64,000 nt of DNA from Methanomassiliicoccus sp. (lineage in GTDB: Archaea; Thermoplasmatota; Thermoplasmata; Methanomassiliicoccales; Methanomassiliicoccaceae). The position numbers and the translations under genes are program-made. The stretch spans positions 186,001 through 250,000 of the forward strand of contig JAWQJJ010000002.1 in the NCBI GenBank assembly GCA_033485155.1, written 5' to 3'. Each line of letters opens with the position of its first letter. Within the stretch, counting starts at the first letter, position 1. The notes beneath the pieces are model-generated. The model was not told the origin of the DNA. It worked only from the letters and a program-made list of their open reading frames with translations, and made no database searches. Positions 27,009 to 37,658 of the stretch are shown here, one piece after another.

Positions 27009-27683
27009 TCAGGAGTGCACCGGCAGCCCCGGTTTCTGCAGCACCACCTCGTACAGCGTCCGGCTGAAGGGCGGGGCGCCGTCCACGAACTCCCTTATCC
27101 ACAACAGAATGGAGCCGTTGGCCAGCTGCCGGAGCTTCTCCTCGGAGAAGAAGCGGACCACGAAGCCCAGGGGGTTCTTCCACATGTCCTCCCCCTGCGG
27201 CTCGAACTTGCCGTAGTGAGGATCGTGATCGTTGCGCACCGAGAAGATGTGAAAGCCGCCCGGCTTCAGGACGCGAAGGCAGTCGTCGAGCATCTTCTGG
27301 ATATCGTCCTCGGTGAACTCCATGGTGAAGAACATGTGCGAGTACACGGCGTCGAACGTTTCGTCCTCGAACGGCAGACGCTCGCGGGCATCGTGGACTA
27401 TAGCCGAGACGACACCTTCCTGGCACTCCATCTTCGCCGTTCTCTTCATCTGGTAGATGCTCTCCTCCGAATAATCGAGCGCGGTGACCATGATGCCGTT
27501 CTCGGCGAAGTACCAGGTATCCCGTCCCTGGCCGCAGCCCAGCTCCAGAACGGTTTGAACAAGGTTTTCTCTCATCCAGGACAGGGCGACGGTCGCAAGC
27601 TCGCTCGGCTCCCTTCCGAAGAATTCCCGAGAGTTGGCGTACGCGCTATCCCACTGCTTCTGCTGGTTGATCTCCTCCTGCAT
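27009..27683 (-). CDS. Class I SAM-dependent methyltransferase
   Basis: A 224-residue Rossmann-fold methyltransferase. SAM-binding motif I is VLELGCGQGRDTWYFA, motif II is VTALDYSEESI, and the acidic/aromatic DAVYSHMFF and VLKPGGFHIFSVRN stretches follow. The start at 27683 has a GGAGG ribosome site eight bases upstream; a longer frame to 27809 adds low-complexity basic residues and is rejected. The N-terminal WDSAYANSREFFGREPSE resembles tellurite-resistance/thiopurine-like methyltransferases, but the substrate is unknown. Convergent with the small hypothetical gene. Confidence 0.85.
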   Translation of the reverse strand: MQEEINQQKQWDSAYANSREFFGREPSELATVALSWMRENLVQTVLELGCGQGRDTWYFAENGIMVTALDYSEESIYQMKRTAKMECQEGVVSAIVHDARERLPFEDETFDAVYSHMFFTMEFTEDDIQKMLDDCLRVLKPGGFHIFSVRNDHDPHYGKFEPQGEDMWKNPLGFVVRFFSEEKLRQLANGSILLWIREFVDGAPPFSRTLYEVVLQKPGLPVHS

Positions 27684-27989
27684 GGAACGTTCCTCCAATG
27701 AATGTGAGGAGCCAAGGAAAGATGGCCCCTCGTTCGCCTCGCCACCTGAGTGCTTGGCAGCGCCGCGTCGGCCTCTCCGATTGCGGACGCCCGTCGGGCA
27801 GGGCGCCATGGTTCACGCAGGAACGGCAACCGGCGAGTGCATCGACCCCCACGCTTCGCCCAGTGACATGACTGGCTGCCGCGTTCGGTCGTCAATCCCA
27901 ACCGCCATATGGCGGCTATGCGCTATATTGCTTTGTGAAAATGGTGATTAAAATCAGAATTAGTGTACAAATGTTGAGTCGGAACGACA

Positions 27990-28500: not shown

Positions 28501-28584
28501 CAGGGACCCCTCTTCAACTCACTTTCAAAAGAAGTCGAATGGGAATCGCACCTGTGGTTCCCCAGTATGAGGAGAAATGTCCCC

Positions 28585-30579
28585 ATGAACGCCGTTCCGT
28601 CCGATCAGGTAGTAAACCCTGTGAAAGAGAAAACAATAGATCCGTGGAGGGTCCACCCGCATGCCGAGGACCTCTTCCGGGAGCACGATGAGCCAGTCCA
28701 GGGCAAGCTCGCTTCCGAGCTCGCCGCGTTGAAGATACCAGACCTAAGGGTTTTGTCGGCGAGCGGCGCGAAAGCGCTGTATTCGAGAGACCAGGCGGAC
28801 GTGCCGGACATGATGAAGTCGGCCATGTTCCGCTCGATGCCCGATGTCGTCGTCCAGCCGTTCTCGGTGGAGGCGATCCAGGGCGTCATGAGGTTCGCCA
28901 CGGAAAAGCGGGTGCCGGTGATCGTCAGGGGTGCGGGTTCCTCGCCCTTCGGCGGATCGATGCCCGTGACCGGCGGTATCGTCGTGGACATGAACGCCAT
29001 GGACCAGGTGCTGACCCTCGATCCGGCGGCCGCCACCGTGAAGGTGCAGGCGGGCATCCGGTGGGCGGACCTGGAGTGGTACCTTGAGAAGAAAGGCCTG
29101 AGCGTGCGCTCGTTGCCGTCCAGCCGCTTCTCCACCGTGGGAGGCTGGGTCGTGGCCGGCGGCATCGGCATCGGCAGTGTATCGTCCGGCAGACTGATCA
29201 ACTCGGTGCTGGCACTGGACATCGTCACCGCGTCCGGAGAGATGAAGACTGTAGCTCCTGGCGACGGGATGTTCGCTCCGGTCTTCGGCAGCGAGGGGCA
29301 GCTGGCGGTCGTCACCGCCATCACCCTGAAGGTACGGCCGAGACCGTCGGCGACCTATCCTCAGCTGGTGTTCTTCGACGACCTTCCGTCGGCCATAAGC
29401 TACGCCAACGCTCTGGCCACCACCAAGCACAAGCCGATGGACCTTACTTATTACAGCCCCATCAAGTTCAAGGCGTTCAACCAAGTGATGCACCGCGACG
29501 ACTATCCCGTGGCTCACGGCATCCTCGTCACCTACGAGGGTAAGAACGACCCGGCCAACGTCGTGCCCGTTCCGGCGGGGGCCAAGGTCGCCCCGCTGTA
29601 CCTCGCGCACCTGATGGCCAACGAGCGCTTCTTCCCCATGAAGTCCCGGCGGCTGGGCCCCGGCCTCATGGGCGCCGAGGTCCTCGCTCCCCGGGCCAAC
29701 CTGGCGAAGATCGTGGAGAAGGCGCTGGAGGTATGCGCTCGGCACGGCATCGAGCCCATGCTGGAGGTGCACTTCCTGGACGATGGGGACGGCATGCTGC
29801 TGTGCTATTACATCACCAATCAGACGCGCCAGCTGAAGTACACCATGGACTCGTTCCGCGGCCTCCTTATCTCCAAGGCCCTGTACGATGAGGGCGCCAA
29901 GCCGTACTCGTTCGGGGTGTGGAACCACTCCTTCGCGGATCAGGCCGATCCCGAGGAGGCCAAGGCGCTGGCCGAGGCCAAGAAGCAGCTGGATCCCCAG
30001 AACATCATGAACCGCGGCAAGTACCCCCACCTCGGCGGGAAGTTCGGCGGCCTGCCGGCAGCGTTCTTCAGCCCCGCCGTGCTGGGATCGGCATTAAGAT
30101 TGGTAAACAAGCTGGGCAAGGTGTCCGCAACGGGCATCAACGTCATAGCCTCCGGCGACCTGATGGTCAGGGAGGAGAAGGATGAGCTTCTGGACGCCGC
30201 GGACCAGTGCGCCATGTGCGGCGCCTGCGTCGGGGTGTGCCCGGCATACACGCTCACCAGGGACGAGCGGGTGACCGCGAGGGGCAAGCTGCTCACCGCC
30301 CGGCAGATGTCCACCGGCAAGCCGATAAGCGAGGAGCACGCGCATCTCACCTTCCTGTGCATGCGGTGCAAGGCCTGCGAGCAGGTCTGCCAGTCCAAGC
30401 TGGCCCTGGTTCCCCTATACGAGATCATGGAGAGGAAGCTCGCCCAGCAGCACGGCCGGGACGATGAGCAGATCAAGCGGTTCATCGAGGTCGCCGAGCA
30501 CTCCGCCTTCTACGACGCTCTAGTGGACCGCGGGCTGGTGCTGGGAGCGCCCGGCAAGAACGTGGAAGGGAGGCTGTGA
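28585..30579 (+). CDS. GlcD/D-lactate dehydrogenase-type FAD oxidase with C-terminal Fe-S domain
   Basis: Predicted 2-hydroxyacid (D-lactate or glycolate-like) dehydrogenase. The PCMH FAD domain has VIVRGAGSSPFGGSMPVTGG near residue 110 and RSLPSSRFSTVGGWVVAGGIG near 175. A C-terminal FAD-oxidase domain ends at LDPQNIMNRGKY. After it comes a GlpC-like Fe-S domain with CAMCGACVGVCP and CMRCKACEQVC, so electrons can leave through two 4Fe-4S clusters. ATG 28585 is chosen because GAGGAG lies ten bases upstream; ATG 28567 is the alternative. It is the first gene of a four-gene operon with one base before the next start. It may act as the electron donor that replaces GltD. Confidence 0.85.
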   Translation: MNAVPSDQVVNPVKEKTIDPWRVHPHAEDLFREHDEPVQGKLASELAALKIPDLRVLSASGAKALYSRDQADVPDMMKSAMFRSMPDVVVQPFSVEAIQGVMRFATEKRVPVIVRGAGSSPFGGSMPVTGGIVVDMNAMDQVLTLDPAAATVKVQAGIRWADLEWYLEKKGLSVRSLPSSRFSTVGGWVVAGGIGIGSVSSGRLINSVLALDIVTASGEMKTVAPGDGMFAPVFGSEGQLAVVTAITLKVRPRPSATYPQLVFFDDLPSAISYANALATTKHKPMDLTYYSPIKFKAFNQVMHRDDYPVAHGILVTYEGKNDPANVVPVPAGAKVAPLYLAHLMANERFFPMKSRRLGPGLMGAEVLAPRANLAKIVEKALEVCARHGIEPMLEVHFLDDGDGMLLCYYITNQTRQLKYTMDSFRGLLISKALYDEGAKPYSFGVWNHSFADQADPEEAKALAEAKKQLDPQNIMNRGKYPHLGGKFGGLPAAFFSPAVLGSALRLVNKLGKVSATGINVIASGDLMVREEKDELLDAADQCAMCGACVGVCPAYTLTRDERVTARGKLLTARQMSTGKPISEEHAHLTFLCMRCKACEQVCQSKLALVPLYEIMERKLAQQHGRDDEQIKRFIEVAEHSAFYDALVDRGLVLGAPGKNVEGRL

Positions 30580-30580
30580 G

Positions 30581-31942
30581 ATGTACCATCACTATCACAT
30601 CGACAAGAAGGAGCTGCCCCTGGGGCCGAACCCCGTGGGCAAGATGCTGGTGACCCGCAGTGCCGCCTGCATGAACTGTGGGCGGTGCACCCTGGCCTGC
30701 GTGTACAAGGTGCACGAGCGGTCGCCGGTCGATCCCCGGGTCATGTGGGAACCGCACAGCCACCTGTGCAAGAACTGCCTGAAGTGCGTGGAGAACTGTC
30801 CCCAGCGGGCCTTGGAGGTCCGCATCTCGCCGGTTTACTCGAACCTGGGCGAAGGCATCTGGACGCCGACCCGGGTGACGACCATGTGGAACGAGTCTCA
30901 GACCGGGAAGCTGCCGGTGTTCGGGGCCGGGTACCGCGGCATGTTCGTGGGACCTGGCTACGACTCAATGTGGACGGACATGTCTGAGATCGTTCGGCCG
31001 ACGAGGGACGGCATCCATGGTCGGGAGTACATCTCGACCACCGTGGACCTGGGAGCCAGGGTCGACCACCTGGAGTTCGGCCCCTCCGGCCAGCTGCTGA
31101 CGGCGATGCCCCCCATCGTCCAGGTGCCCCTGCCCATCCTCATGGATGTTAGCCGCCTCACCGACCTCGGGACGAAGGCCCTGGAAGGCCTGATAAAGGC
31201 GGCCAGCACGCTGGGTACATTCCTATTCATCCCTGCCGAGGCCAAGCTTCCGGCGGGACTGGGCGAGGCCGAGGGGTGCCTGGCCCCGGTGTTCTCCTCC
31301 GGCAAGACAGCGGCGCCGACGGTCGCCGCTCCAAAGATCGTGGAGTTCGAGATGTCGCCTCGCTGGAAGGAGGACCTCGCGGCCCTTAGGTCGAGGTTCC
31401 CCGGCGCGGTCATCGCCGTTCGGGTCCCTGTCTCCAAGGGCATCGAGGAGCTGGCGGTCGACCTCGTCTCGGGTGGAGTGGACGTGCTGCATTTGCTGTA
31501 CGATGAACAAGGTAAGGAGCAGGGAACGGACCGCTTGGCCCGGGATTCCCTGCTCGCGATCAACAAGGCGCTGGCCCAGAAGTCCCTGCGCGAGGCGGTC
31601 AGCATTCTGGCTGCTGGGGGCCTGGCGGCGGCCGAGCACGTGCCCAAGAGCATCATCTGCGGGGCCGACGCCGTCGTCCTCGAACGGGCGCTCAAGGTCG
31701 CCCTGGGCTGCCACGCCAACGCCAGCTGTCCGGTCTGCCCCATGACCGACGACAAGATCGACCGGGAGTTCGCCTACTGGCGGACGATCAACATGATCGG
31801 GGCGTGGAGAGATCAGTTGCTCGAGGTAATGGGCGCGATGGGCGTCCGCGAAGCGAGGAGGCTGCGCGGCGAGATAGGCAGGGCGATCTTCTACGAGGAT
31901 GCCGAAAGGGACGCCTTCGCCAACATCCAGGGAGGTGCTTGA
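30581..31942 (+). CDS. Ferredoxin-domain protein with divergent GltB-like FMN domain
   Basis: A 453-residue protein with a two-cluster ferredoxin domain at the N-terminus (CMNCGRCTLACVYKVH, CKNCLKCVENCPQ) and a C-terminal part that follows the layout of the glutamate synthase FMN domain. Recognisable pieces are WTDMSEIVRPTRDGIHGREY, PIVQVPLPILMDVS, ICGADAVVLERALKVALGC and CPVCP, plus the terminal helix GAMGVREARRLRGEIGR. The middle is shorter and lacks the GGYGGTGAAP substrate-binding loop seen in the next gene. It looks like a tandem paralogue of the downstream subunit that has lost part of the active site, perhaps an electron-transfer partner. It starts one base after the upstream stop. Confidence 0.7.
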   Translation: MYHHYHIDKKELPLGPNPVGKMLVTRSAACMNCGRCTLACVYKVHERSPVDPRVMWEPHSHLCKNCLKCVENCPQRALEVRISPVYSNLGEGIWTPTRVTTMWNESQTGKLPVFGAGYRGMFVGPGYDSMWTDMSEIVRPTRDGIHGREYISTTVDLGARVDHLEFGPSGQLLTAMPPIVQVPLPILMDVSRLTDLGTKALEGLIKAASTLGTFLFIPAEAKLPAGLGEAEGCLAPVFSSGKTAAPTVAAPKIVEFEMSPRWKEDLAALRSRFPGAVIAVRVPVSKGIEELAVDLVSGGVDVLHLLYDEQGKEQGTDRLARDSLLAINKALAQKSLREAVSILAAGGLAAAEHVPKSIICGADAVVLERALKVALGCHANASCPVCPMTDDKIDREFAYWRTINMIGAWRDQLLEVMGAMGVREARRLRGEIGRAIFYEDAERDAFANIQGGA

Positions 31943-31943
31943 G

Positions 31944-33479
31944 ATGGTGGACGCGGTCAACGGAATAAAGAACGAAGCTATCCCGCCGTTGGGCGGGGCG
32001 GAGTGCGAGGACTTCGTCCAGGTCCCCTCCCGCATACTGCAGCGGATGAACCGGTACACGGTGACGAGGACGGACAACTGCATCGCCTGCGGCCTGTGCG
32101 CCGCCCTGTGCCCCACCGGGGTGCACCGGAGGATCGAAGGCCACGTGAGGATGCTTCACCCGGCGGAAGCGCGCTGCATAGGACCAACCTGCGCCGCTAA
32201 CGATTACTACTGCGTGAAGAACTGTCCGACCCAGGCGCTGACCATCGCGCCTAATCCGATATTCAACAGCATGGGCGACCCCCGGTGGACGCCGGACATG
32301 ATCCTGGCGACCTGGTCGCAGGCCGAGACCGGCCAGCCCATCCCTCTGGACCACTACACCCAGACGGGCAACTGCGGCGGCGGGTTCGACCGCATCAAGT
32401 TCCCCCTGCCCCCGATGCGGGGCAACTTCGAACCGGAGGAGATCTCCACCGCCATCGACCTCAACCACAGGAAGAAAGGTCCGAGGGTCAGGATCAACCT
32501 GCCCGTATATGGCGGAGGGATGTCCTTCGGCTCCATCAGCAAGCGGACGATGTCCGCCCGGGCCATGACCGCGACGGAGTGGAACACCTTCACCTGCACC
32601 GGGGAGGGCGGCTATCCCGACGTCCTCGTGCCGTACAAGGATCACGTTATCACGCAGATTGCCACCGGGCTGTTCGGTGTTCGGGAGGAGACCATCCAGC
32701 GCGCTCCCATCGTTGAGTTCAAGTACGCCCAGGGGGCCAAGCCCGGACTAGGCGGGCACCTGCTGTACGAGAAGAATACTCCGGAGGTAGCGAAGATGAG
32801 GGAGGCGGTGCCGTACACCTCGCTGTTCTCGCCGTTCCCCTTCCACAGCGTGTACTCGGTCGAGGACCACCAGAAGCACCTCGACTGGATCCACTCGGTA
32901 AATCCCAGAGCGCTGCTGTCGGTCAAGGTGTCCACCCCTAACGACGTGGAGATGGTCGCTGTCGGTTCCTACTACGCGGGAGCGAACATCATCCATCTGG
33001 ACGGCGGGTACGGAGGCACCGGCGCGGCGCCGGAGATCGCCAAGAAGAACATCGCCCAGCCGATCGAGTACGCCATTCCCAAGGTGCACCGCTTCCTCGA
33101 GAACGAGGGAGTCAGGGAGGATCTGACCCTCATCGCCAGCGGAGGAATGAGGACGGCCATGGACATCGCCAAAGCGATCGCATTGGGCGCGGACGGCGTG
33201 GTCATCGGGACGGCCGAGATGGTGGCCATGGGCTGCGTGAGGTGCGGTAACTGCGAGAGCGGCCGGGGCTGCCCCCGCGGTATCGCCACCACCGACAAGG
33301 AGCTCGAGCTGCTGAACGAGATACCGACCCAGGCGAGGCGGCTTTCCAACCTCTACCGCTCCTGGCAGATGCAGTGGAAGGAGCTGCTGCACCGGCTGGA
33401 GATGACCGACATCAGAGAGCTGAGAGGTCGCACGGATCTGCTCCGCTACGACGGAGTCCCCGGGAGGATGACGCTATGA
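31944..33479 (+). CDS. gltB: Glutamate synthase FMN/Fe-S subunit (archaeal GltB-like) with ferredoxin domain
   Basis: Predicted synthase subunit that forms glutamate from 2-oxoglutarate and ammonia using FMN. The N-terminal ferredoxin domain has CIACGLCAALCPTGVH and a second cysteine set in CIGPTCAANDYYCVKNCP. The catalytic barrel shows VYGGGMSFGSISKRTM, CTGEGGYPD, HLDGGYGGTGAAPEIAKK, LIASGGMRTAMD and the 3Fe-4S motif CVRCGNCESGRGCPRG. ATG 31944 follows GGAGGTG by six bases, so the open frame's earlier start is rejected; it abuts the previous stop. It overlaps the next start by four bases. In archaea such proteins pair with separate amidotransferase and GXGXG modules. Confidence 0.9.
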   Translation: MVDAVNGIKNEAIPPLGGAECEDFVQVPSRILQRMNRYTVTRTDNCIACGLCAALCPTGVHRRIEGHVRMLHPAEARCIGPTCAANDYYCVKNCPTQALTIAPNPIFNSMGDPRWTPDMILATWSQAETGQPIPLDHYTQTGNCGGGFDRIKFPLPPMRGNFEPEEISTAIDLNHRKKGPRVRINLPVYGGGMSFGSISKRTMSARAMTATEWNTFTCTGEGGYPDVLVPYKDHVITQIATGLFGVREETIQRAPIVEFKYAQGAKPGLGGHLLYEKNTPEVAKMREAVPYTSLFSPFPFHSVYSVEDHQKHLDWIHSVNPRALLSVKVSTPNDVEMVAVGSYYAGANIIHLDGGYGGTGAAPEIAKKNIAQPIEYAIPKVHRFLENEGVREDLTLIASGGMRTAMDIAKAIALGADGVVIGTAEMVAMGCVRCGNCESGRGCPRGIATTDKELELLNEIPTQARRLSNLYRSWQMQWKELLHRLEMTDIRELRGRTDLLRYDGVPGRMTL

Positions 33480-36091
33480 ACAGCGCGGACGCGATGATCG
33501 CTTCAAGAAAGAAGGTAGACCAGAGAGAACTGAAGATCCATCCGCAGGAGGCGGAGGGTGGGTGCGGCGTCGTCGGTCTGGCGGCGTCCAAGCCGGTCGA
33601 TGGCCGGCACATCATGCTGTCGCTTCACCAGATGCACAACCGTGGCAACGGCAAGGGCGGCGGCATCTCCGCCGTTGGCCTGGTCCCGGAGCAGCTGGGA
33701 GTGGACAGGAAGACCCTGGAGGAGTGCTACCTGGTGCAGGTCGCCTACCTCAAGGACGAGGTCCGCGGCGAGGTGGAGAAGTACATCCACGACCGCTACG
33801 ATGTCGCCTCGAGCCACCAGGTAGCGGTCAGCTCTGACCCTGACCTGCTGGCGCGCCTGGAGGTGCGCCCTCCGAACGTCGTCCGGTACTTCTGCCGGGC
33901 CAAGAAGGACAGGCTGCAGAAGTTCATCGCCGAGAACAACCTGGTCGACCTGGGAGCGGAGAAGTCGGAGGACGAGTACGTCTACCAGACCAACTTCCAG
34001 ATCAACCTCAAGTACTACGGCAACTCGGCCATGGCCGCTTTCGTCATGTCCGAGGGACGGAACATGCTGATCATGAAGATCGTCGGCTACGCCGAGGACG
34101 TGATCTCCTATTACAAGATGGAGGACTTCAAGGCCAACGTGTGGATCGGGCACCAGAGGTTCCCCACCAAGGGCCGGGTGTGGCATCCCGGCGGCGCGCA
34201 TCCGTTCATGGGCCTGGATATGGCCTTGGTGCACAACGGCGACTTCGCCAACTACTACTCGGTGGCCGAGTACCTGGGCCAGAAGGGGATCAAGCCCCTG
34301 TTCTTCACCGATACCGAGGTGTCGGCACTGCTCTTTGACCTCCTCAGCCGGGTGTACGAGTACCCGCTGGAGTACATACTGGAGGCGCTGGCGCCGACCA
34401 CGGAGAGGGACTTCTACCAGCTGCCGCCGGAGAAGCAGCGCATCTACCGGGCGATCCAGTCCACGCACCTCCACCGGTCCCCGGACGGCCCCTGGTTCTT
34501 CATCATCAGCCGCAACGACCACTACAACGACCAGCTGCAGCTGATCGGCATCACCGACACCTCCATGCTTCGGCCTCAGGTGTTCGCCCTGGTCGAGGGG
34601 GAGCTGCAGGTCGGTCTGATCGCCTCGGAGAAGCAGGCCATCGACGCCGTGCTGGGGTCGCTGTCCCAGGTGTATCCCACCCTGCCCCTGCAGGCGGACA
34701 TGTACTGGAATGCCAGGGGAGGGAGCCACACCGACGGCGGGGGCTTCATCTTCACCCTGGGCAAGGACGAGGGAGCAAAGGGAAGGGCGCTGACCTGCAC
34801 CAACAAGTTCGGGGCCAAGGTCACCGTCCAGGGCAAGGAGTTCGACCTGGCCAAGGATGCCATCATGGCTGGTCCCCTGCCCAAAGTGACGAGCTCTCCG
34901 CTCGCCGACCTCATGCTGGCCGGCGATCTCCAGGCCGGGTTCAAGGCCTGGACGGAAGCGGTCGCCCGCGGATCCCACAGCGAGCTCATGGAGGCCATGG
35001 CTGCGCTGTCCGTTCCGGTAAAAGGCGCGGCTGAATGCGAGAAGCGCCTGGCGCTCCTATCGCTGGCGCTGGACCGCCGGTACCCGACCGGGACCATCCG
35101 CCGGAGCCGCCTCCTTACCCAGCTAAACCGGGCCATCGCCAACATGGTCCGGGCATCGCCGCGCATGGAATCCGCAGACGTCTCCAGCCTGACCCTGGCC
35201 GACCGTAAGAACTACCGCTCCGTCCCCTCGCCGAGGAAGGGGCAGTGGGCTCTGGCCATCGACTGCGAGGGCTTCCCCATGGAGGGTGACGAGGGCGTGT
35301 CCCGTCTCATCTGCCGGGCCGCCGAGGCCGGGTGGAAGAAGTTCATAGTCGTCGGCGCGCACGGGCAGCGGTTCTTCGGGTGCGGGCTCGGCCCCAGGTC
35401 GACCGGCATCGAGATCGACGTCTACGGCAGCTCCGGCGACTACCTGTCCTCGGGACTGGACGGAGCGGTGATCACCGTTCACGGCAACGCCCAGGACCAG
35501 CTCGGCCAGATCATGGCCTCGGGAAAGCTGGTGGTGCACGGGGATGTCGGGCAGACCTTCATGTACGGGGCCAAGGGCGGCAACGTCTTCATCCGCGGCA
35601 ACGCCGCGGGCCGGCCGCTGATCAACGCCGTGGGCAAGCCCCGGGTGGTCATCAACGGCACCTGCCTGGACTACCTCGCGGAATCTATCATGGCCGGCGA
35701 TCCGCTCAACGGCGGAGGTTTCGTCGTGCTCAACGCCCTGGGCTTCACCGCCGAGGGCCGAGCATACGACCTGCCGGAGCCGTACCCCGGTGGGAACCTG
35801 TTCTCCCTGGCGTCCGGCGGAGCTATCTACGTCCGCGACCCCATGAACAAGGTGGGGGAGGACCAGCTCAACGGCGGCCGCATCGGGAAGATGACTGACA
35901 GCGATTGGGCTCTCCTCCTGCCATACCTCAGGGAGAACGAGGCTCTCTTCGGCATATCCATCAAGGATGATCTGCTGATGAAGAACGGCTCGCCGGTCCG
36001 ACCGGAGGAGATCTACAAGAAGATCGAGGTGGTGCCGATCACCAAGGCCGCTCCCCAAGCGGCTGCGCTGGCCGACGACGAGGCCAGCTGA
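33476..36091 (+). CDS. Fused class II glutamine amidotransferase and GXGXG domain (glutamate synthase)
   Basis: An 871-residue protein supplying ammonia to the upstream FMN subunit. The class II amidotransferase domain starts at the nucleophile Cys30 in EGGCGVVGLAAS, after a 29-residue segment that would have to be removed as a propeptide. HQRFPTKGRVWHPGGAHPF and ALVHNGDFANY are the substrate- and structure-defining motifs. From about residue 590 a GXGXG beta-helix follows: GAHGQRFFGCGLG, DYLSSGLDGAVITVHGNAQD and FMYGAKGGNVFIRGNA. ATG 33476 overlaps the upstream stop by four bases. Archaea usually carry these modules as separate genes, so the fusion is notable. Confidence 0.88.
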   Translation: MNSADAMIASRKKVDQRELKIHPQEAEGGCGVVGLAASKPVDGRHIMLSLHQMHNRGNGKGGGISAVGLVPEQLGVDRKTLEECYLVQVAYLKDEVRGEVEKYIHDRYDVASSHQVAVSSDPDLLARLEVRPPNVVRYFCRAKKDRLQKFIAENNLVDLGAEKSEDEYVYQTNFQINLKYYGNSAMAAFVMSEGRNMLIMKIVGYAEDVISYYKMEDFKANVWIGHQRFPTKGRVWHPGGAHPFMGLDMALVHNGDFANYYSVAEYLGQKGIKPLFFTDTEVSALLFDLLSRVYEYPLEYILEALAPTTERDFYQLPPEKQRIYRAIQSTHLHRSPDGPWFFIISRNDHYNDQLQLIGITDTSMLRPQVFALVEGELQVGLIASEKQAIDAVLGSLSQVYPTLPLQADMYWNARGGSHTDGGGFIFTLGKDEGAKGRALTCTNKFGAKVTVQGKEFDLAKDAIMAGPLPKVTSSPLADLMLAGDLQAGFKAWTEAVARGSHSELMEAMAALSVPVKGAAECEKRLALLSLALDRRYPTGTIRRSRLLTQLNRAIANMVRASPRMESADVSSLTLADRKNYRSVPSPRKGQWALAIDCEGFPMEGDEGVSRLICRAAEAGWKKFIVVGAHGQRFFGCGLGPRSTGIEIDVYGSSGDYLSSGLDGAVITVHGNAQDQLGQIMASGKLVVHGDVGQTFMYGAKGGNVFIRGNAAGRPLINAVGKPRVVINGTCLDYLAESIMAGDPLNGGGFVVLNALGFTAEGRAYDLPEPYPGGNLFSLASGGAIYVRDPMNKVGEDQLNGGRIGKMTDSDWALLLPYLRENEALFGISIKDDLLMKNGSPVRPEEIYKKIEVVPITKAAPQAAALADDEAS

Positions 36092-36758: not shown

Positions 36759-37319
36759 TCATTTTTTCTTGTAGCTCCTTCCGACCGAGAACGCCTTGCT
36801 GACGACCTCGCCGATGCGGCTGTACTCGTTGCCGGCGTAGACCATGGCGTCGATCTTCCTGTGATCGGGCAAGTTATTGGTCAGGCAATCCCTGTCCACG
36901 TGAACGTCCACGACCTCACCGACGTGCAGGTTGTGGCTCCCGAGCTCGAGGGTGTGTCCAAGCCGGCATTCGATGTTGACGGGGAACTCGCCGATCAGGG
37001 GAGCGGTCTCGAGCTTGCCATAGAAGGTGTCGAAAATAGCGGACTTGTCTTCCTTGCCGCCGGAGACGATGCCACAGTGATCGGTCTCCACCGATTGCTT
37101 CGAGCTTGGGATGTTCACGCTGAACGTCCCGTTCTCGGCGATACCCTTCTCGGTGTGCCTGACCTTGTTGATGGCCACGGCAATCATGGGAGGGTCCATG
37201 CACGCGACCCCTGCCCAAGCCACGGCCATGTAGTTCGGTTTTCCTTCGACATTCGCGCCGACGAGCACTATGGGCATCGCGGTCAAGTATGGCCTGGGGC
37301 CAAGAGATACCTTATCCAT
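36759..37319 (-). CDS. Flavin reductase-like FMN-binding protein (flavoredoxin family)
   Basis: A 186-residue split-barrel flavoprotein. It has PIVLVGANVEGKPNYMAVAWAGV near the N-terminus and PPMIAVAINKVRHTEKGI followed by FSVNIPS, the FMN-phosphate and dimer motifs of the flavin reductase-like family, and ends with a GRSYKKK basic tail. Methanogen relatives are called flavoredoxins and carry electrons for various enzymes. The open frame reaches 37535, but the ATG at 37319 has a GGTGA site in front and begins at the conserved MDKVSLGPRPYL, so it is preferred. Confidence 0.85.
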   Translation of the reverse strand: MDKVSLGPRPYLTAMPIVLVGANVEGKPNYMAVAWAGVACMDPPMIAVAINKVRHTEKGIAENGTFSVNIPSSKQSVETDHCGIVSGGKEDKSAIFDTFYGKLETAPLIGEFPVNIECRLGHTLELGSHNLHVGEVVDVHVDRDCLTNNLPDHRKIDAMVYAGNEYSRIGEVVSKAFSVGRSYKKK

Positions 37320-37658
37320 TTTGTCACCTAGGGCGGAGAAAATCATCGGAATGGATGATATTAAAAAAGAGCGGCGATCCGGTCGGACACGATACGAAAA
37401 CCGCAGGGGCTGGAACGGGCAGCGATGACCCAACACGATCGAGACGGGGCCGTGACGTTCGCCACTCCAAGTGCAGCATCCGAGAAATGTAACCTCCGCC
37501 GACAAGGTCGGTCGGCGGCCCACGAGTGTTGCCACCCATACCTTTAACGCAGTCGCGGCGCTGAATTCACATTATCCAGGAGATGCGCATTAGAATCGGT
37601 AGTTGATACGTGTCGATGGGATATTGGATATGCGAGGAGAACACCTTTCAATGATCGA
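37320..37658. promoter_or_regulatory. Divergent promoter region with a strong hairpin
   Basis: About 340 bp between the flavoprotein and MarC genes. CTTTTTTAATATC, read on the minus strand at about 37358-37372, can serve as TATA box of the flavoprotein. CCGCCGAC (37496-37503) pairs perfectly with GTCGGCGG (37511-37518) around a 7-nt loop and has no T-run, so an operator or RNA stem is more likely than a terminator. GAGGAGA at about 37634 is 20 nt from the MarC start. Confidence 0.5.

Follow-up and report, generated by a model that had tools for sequence, protein, structure and literature searches.

A probable glutamate synthase variant with an archaeal GlcD-fold candidate electron-input subunit in Methanomassiliicoccus sp.

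A block of four genes found in a 64,000-nucleotide stretch of Methanomassiliicoccus sp. DNA (hereafter the window) very probably encodes a glutamate synthase variant of a little-described type, in which a three-gene core (F1, F2 and A) is accompanied by an archaeal GlcD-fold flavoprotein (D) predicted to act as its electron-input subunit (Table 1). The glutamate synthases known so far draw their electrons from NAD(P)H or ferredoxin, and F420 has been proposed as the donor in methanogens. The observations behind the present assignment concern gene content, conservation, co-evolution and the loss of an active site. No description of this gene set was found in the openly licensed literature, a scope that makes the result weak evidence of absence.

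Table 1. The four genes of the block, with window coordinates and the basis of each assignment.
Gene	Predicted product	Position	Strand	Basis
D	GlcD/D-LDH-fold (VAO/PCMH) flavoprotein with C-terminal two-[4Fe-4S] GlcF/HdrC-like arm	28585..30579	+	Pfam, AF2 model
F1	Two-[4Fe-4S] ferredoxin domain and degenerate GltB FMN-type barrel	30581..31942	+	Pfam, Foldseek
F2	Ferredoxin domain and full GltB FMN/[3Fe-4S] synthase domain; predicted catalytic synthase subunit	31944..33479	+	Pfam, 1ea0 alignment
A	Class II glutamine amidotransferase (Cys30 nucleophile after propeptide) fused to GXGXG beta-helix domain	33476..36091	+	Pfam

Open reading frames exist for each of the four genes (window 28585-36091, plus strand), with a single base separating D from F1 and F1 from F2, and a 4-base ATGA overlap between F2 and A. 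The D reading frame opens at 28567, the ATG at 28585 being preceded by a ribosome-binding-like AGGAG and agreeing with the start in close homologues; from there the protein has 664 residues. For F2 a longer reading frame from 31899 is possible, and that of A opens at 33374. The closest relative, in a metagenome-assembled genome (MAG) titled Methanomassiliicoccus sp. (L044, the contig of G044, from the window's genus), is 88% identical over F2 and A. The D-F1-F2-A order is repeated in more than 12 other genomes with unrelated flanks, so that the four-gene block recognised in the initial annotation is real and not a chance arrangement. Elsewhere in the window, a methyltransferase near the selenoprotein family MduS (27009-27809, minus strand; 226 bits against a cut-off of 380) shows no extension past the stop and is therefore apparently not a selenoprotein here. 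A Flavin_Reduct-domain protein lies close to the block (36759-37535, minus strand), and large, probably cell-surface proteins with fn3, bacterial Ig-like, PKD and Kre9/KNH domains occupy 40229-60676. No RNA families were found in the window.

The hallmarks of glutamate synthases (GltS) are present in the block: a class II glutaminase with N-terminal Cys, an FMN domain with [3Fe-4S] cysteines, and a GXGXG domain. F2 matches Fer4 and Glu_synthase (PF01645, 302 bits) in Pfam and aligns to 1ea0 at E=2e-45, its Cys446, Cys452 and Cys458 standing opposite C1102, C1108 and C1113; these three [3Fe-4S] cysteines are 100% kept in 73 sequences. A was correctly recognised at the outset as a fused amidotransferase-GXGXG subunit, both domains being found by Pfam (GXGXG, PF01493, E=1.2e-12; GATase_6, 26.6 bits against a cut-off of 27), and its Cys30 nucleophile, together with the key residues of the GGCG, HxR, HNGD and TDTE motifs, is 100% conserved in 73 A proteins. 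The view of F1 and F2 as two ferredoxin-GltB FMN paralogues stands for F2, with its full domain, but not for F1, which is degenerate rather than a second full FMN enzyme. F1 (453 residues) contains a pair of ferredoxin-type Cys motifs, and its Pfam matches are Fer4 and, weakly and at the C-terminus, Glu_synthase (profile positions 260-367 of 369, 35 bits); its sequence match to GltB is weak (E=0.02), and Foldseek pairs it with GltB 7mfm (E=9.7e-7) and also with FMN hydroxyacid oxidases. The diagnostic motif TDMSEIVRPTRDGIHGRE is nearly invariant among 62 F1 proteins. Because the Glu_synthase profile is matched in its C-terminal portion alone, the possibility that F1 is a second active synthase was discarded, and the partial match leads us to treat it as a degenerate paralogue that likely acts as an electron relay.

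Taken together with the genomic context, these features indicate that F1-F2-A is very probably a glutamate synthase. In some loci the core adjoins amt, glnA or carAB, neighbours that were confirmed by NCBIfam; the ANME-1 locus L072, for instance, reads amt, a PII-like gene, an opposite-strand open reading frame, glnA, D, F1, F2, A, carB and carA. Of the 32 genomes carrying the triad, 19 have no strong PF01645 match besides F2, D-bearing ones among them (G008, G028, G054, G341, G342, G343, G344 and G345). Three of the 19, from Dehalococcoidia, Syntrophorhabdaceae and ANME-1 (G331, G339 and G341), have no PF00208 glutamate dehydrogenase (GDH) match at E<=1e-10, bearing in mind that absences in MAGs may reflect assembly gaps. 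The host of the window is a different case: the triad was considered as its only glutamate synthase and rejected as such, a canonical archaeal glutamate synthase operon being present on contig C1, and since GDH is encoded as well, the four-gene set is additional there. The loop beside the synthase site of F2 reads SPFPFHSVYSVEDH throughout the 73 sequences, against the canonical SPPPHHDIYSIEDL, which was taken from the F2 alignments to known synthases and from the host's contig C1 copy and is typical of, though perhaps not defining for, GltS; substrate specificity could therefore differ. This family-wide loop change and the canonical synthase of the host would both fit a reductive amidotransferase acting on some 2-oxoacid other than that of glutamate synthase. 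Such an enzyme seems very unlikely, however, when the core supplies the only GltB-type protein of so many genomes, three of them without GDH, and has nitrogen-assimilation genes beside some of its loci.

Of the 73 loci in which F2 and A are complete, 20 have D next to the core, all of them archaeal (Methanomassiliicoccales and related Thermoplasmatota/Euryarchaeota MAGs, ANME-1 and Methylarchaceae); D is missing from 39 despite at least 2.5 kb upstream of the core, and 14 are undecided. On the core tree the D label requires 2 changes, compared with 16.9 for shuffled labels, the tree being a quick one without bootstrap on which near-copies help any label to cluster. Over the 20 loci, the correlation of D distances with F1, F2 and A distances is r = 0.93, 0.95 and 0.90, respectively, the null maxima being 0.51-0.65. 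In 32 genomes, matches spanning the Fe-S arm of D occur only at the triad, and shorter GlcD-like paralogues are found elsewhere. The idea of D as a chance neighbour was rejected in view of the gene order, which is kept although the flanks vary, of the co-evolution and of the tree; D has evolved together with the core in several archaeal groups. A multi-subunit glutamate synthase without GltD, as first proposed, is supported, with a GlcD-fold Fe-S flavoprotein as a conserved fourth partner. The expectation that the dehydrogenase would normally accompany the synthase did not hold beyond these groups: all four genes co-occur in several archaeal lineages, but further afield F1-F2-A stands without an adjoining D in bacterial loci and in one archaeal family, which means that D is not a general requirement of the synthase.

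The synthase family is more widespread than the window alone could show. When 120 genomes of the window's order were searched with the F1 protein, whole or partial F1 orthologues turned up in about 16; as far as the contigs extend, D, F1, F2 and A keep their order and strand, and the flanks differ between genera (in L038 the F1 position was set by the F1 protein match). Most genomes of the order being without it, the gene set is sporadic there. Among 243 genomes drawn from the window's phylum, F1 is present in 18, of which 14 lie outside the order; none of the nine loci read among them has D beside the core, one contig (L134) beginning at F1. Eight of the nine consist of F1-F2-A alone, and the ninth has a fused F1-F2 followed by EtfB-/EtfA-type genes. 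The latter locus (L126:1128-10097, G159) encodes an F1-F2 fusion of 840 residues, then A, EtfB-like and EtfA-like proteins and, further on, a CCG-domain protein, possibly another electron-input module.

A scan of GTDB genomes with the A alignment returned at least 518 relatives of A; among the best 80 of these loci, HMM mapping placed F1, F2 and A together in most of those on a long enough contig, in hosts from many bacterial phyla as well as archaea. In L064, L092 and L101 (ANME-1/Methanophagales or Methanomicrobia), A was seen without F1 or F2 alongside, and the partner genes may lie elsewhere. Within a few genes of the core in the 65 loci where D was not seen are MvhD/FlpD (26), MetF (24), MetV (19), HdrA/GltD-type (16), HdrB (13), HdrC (11), carA (8), carB (6), PII-like (6) and glnA (5) genes; the 15 D-bearing loci counted showed no MvhD, MetF, MetV, HdrB or HdrC among their neighbours. 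F1-F2-A lies inside HdrABC-MvhD-MetFV clusters in L062, L068, L073, L106, L113, L121 and other bacterial loci, and several such clusters carry an HdrA-GltD fusion of about 1,480-1,500 residues, a type of fusion already described (PMC12054007; PMC2702500). The bacterial glutamate synthase may share an electron module with methylene-tetrahydrofolate reductase.

As originally noted for the block, no GltD accompanies the synthase, and this extends to the whole host genome (no TIGR01316 match at E<=1e-20). A GltA/GltD-type protein was likewise not found in the D-bearing genomes G000 (the window's own), G044, G028 and G342 or in the f32 and f13 genomes, where absences in MAGs may again reflect assembly gaps; most other genomes searched do have one. 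A scan of the block and its adjacent genes gave no FrhB/FdhB-type F420 subunit. In at least four D-bearing loci (L050, L052 and L056, and by coordinates L059) a GltD/NfnA-type gene lies shortly downstream, in the first three behind an NfnB-like gene, the L050 pair being confirmed by NCBIfam. The downstream gene could feed the core instead of D at those loci, and D is accordingly unlikely to be the sole possible input in every lineage. In L050, L052, L055 and L056, A is immediately followed by NfnB-like and NfnA/GltD-like genes, the whole D-F1-F2-A set being seen in L050, L052 and L056.

It could also be argued that the core is simply ferredoxin-dependent and that D is a structural or regulatory subunit devoid of flavin chemistry of its own. 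Both F1 and F2 bear ferredoxin domains, and in the archaeal family f32, tentatively Poseidoniales, and in f13 the core was seen by itself, a D, Hdr or GltD gene not having been detected. A purely structural or regulatory D is nevertheless rather unlikely: the FAD-domain motifs and both Fe-S Cys motifs are kept in D homologues, a retention that suggests redox activity. Pfam finds in D an FAD_binding_4 domain (E=2.5e-36), a partial FAD-oxidase_C and a 4Fe-4S dicluster (Fer4_8). The cap domain is divergent, and the two-[4Fe-4S] arm is closest to the N-terminal part of GlcF.

The initial annotation went further and suggested that the electrons may come from D-lactate or another 2-hydroxyacid, a coupling that is not supported for the known chemistry and proved to be the weakest part of the idea. 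If D were a 2-hydroxyacid dehydrogenase, the oxidation of lactate (or glycolate, or 2-hydroxyglutarate) would drive glutamate synthesis, and with pyruvate/lactate at about -190 mV and 2-oxoglutarate plus NH3/glutamate at about -120 mV the overall reaction would be downhill. The known GltS FMN (-240 to -270 mV) and [4Fe-4S] centres (<= -360 mV), however, lie below lactate. The VAO fold of D is nearest to that of mouse LDHD (mLDHD), the top PDB match of its AF2 model (pLDDT 75.5; E=1.5e-20), and D also matches the profile of LctD, from the Ldh-EtfAB complex (E=1.3e-34). In mLDHD, Arg347, His398, His405, Glu442 and His443 are required, Ala at each abolishing activity (PMC10589216), and the active-site residues of LctD are Arg328, His377, His384, Glu422 and His423 (PMC9232219). 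Two of the five residues are retained in 23/23 aligned D proteins, namely R354 (the carboxylate-binding Arg) and H402 (the first metal His). None of the 23 keeps the other three residues that D-lactate dehydrogenase cannot do without: in the alignment with LctD and a D-LDH, Leu, Ile or Met occupies the column of the second metal His, and the positions of the metal Glu and the catalytic His (GEH) fall in a gap, column detail being uncertain at such divergence. The corresponding HxGDGNLH (HAGDGNLH) and GEHG motifs are absent across the whole of all D proteins inspected. Hydroxyacid oxidation by D is thus highly improbable, and since its pocket lacks the metal/His site of 2-hydroxyacid dehydrogenases, the donor is most likely something else. 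The invariance of E400-x-H402 in the 23 aligned proteins suggests a pocket that has been remodelled and is not dead. It is conceivable, if doubtful, that D directly oxidises a non-classical organic substrate in a new VAO site built around E400-x-H402 and R354 and passes the electrons via F1 to F2; the glutamate synthase would then run on substrate oxidation and need neither NAD(P)H nor F420 nor ferredoxin.

On balance, we favour as probable an F1-F2-A glutamate synthase core that works with exchangeable electron-input modules or free ferredoxin, D being a dedicated archaeal partner with a non-hydroxyacid donor. Complex formation, the direction of electron flow and the reaction are here inferred from homology. 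A would hydrolyse glutamine and deliver ammonia to F2, whose FMN would reduce 2-iminoglutarate to glutamate, with F1 and the ferredoxin domains forming an Fe-S wire into F2. This core would be fed by exchangeable partners or by free ferredoxin; in several archaeal groups D, a FAD protein with two [4Fe-4S] clusters, would dock on F1/F2 and most likely pass to it electrons from another donor, either a different substrate or a reduced carrier. If this is true, the recurrence of one core with varied input genes would mean that anaerobes plug nitrogen assimilation into the redox carrier available, and D would be a concrete candidate for a subunit, so far unrecognised, through which electrons enter in methanogens and methanotrophs.

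Regarding known systems, the block has the class II glutaminase, the FMN/[3Fe-4S] domain and the GXGXG domain in common with bacterial NADPH-GltS (GltB/GltD) and with plant and cyanobacterial Fd-GltS, but it is split over three chains, has extra ferredoxin domains, a degenerate F1 and a changed loop, and no GltD exists in the window's genome. The archaeal three-gene GltS, represented in the host by the contig C1 copy, likewise has separate subunits and a ferredoxin fused to the FMN domain; its glutaminase and GXGXG genes are separate, whereas the block has them fused and adds F1, D and another loop. D shares the VAO fold with LctD of Ldh-EtfAB and with GlcD/GlcF and resembles a fusion of GlcD with the N-terminal dicluster of GlcF; unlike these proteins, it has lost the metal/His active-site motif, and a CCG domain was not found in it. 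With respect to the MvhD, MetFV and HdrABC systems, such genes often adjoin the bacterial F1-F2-A core; MvhD, MetF, MetV, HdrB and HdrC were all absent from the surroundings of the 15 counted loci with D. Finally, the putative F420-dependent FGltS (PMC3448663; FrhB10 clusters in ANME, PMC9012536) similarly combines GltS subunits with an input flavoprotein other than GltD, the proposed enzymes using an F420 protein of the FrhB/FdhB type for this purpose, whereas the D protein of the block has a VAO/GlcD fold.
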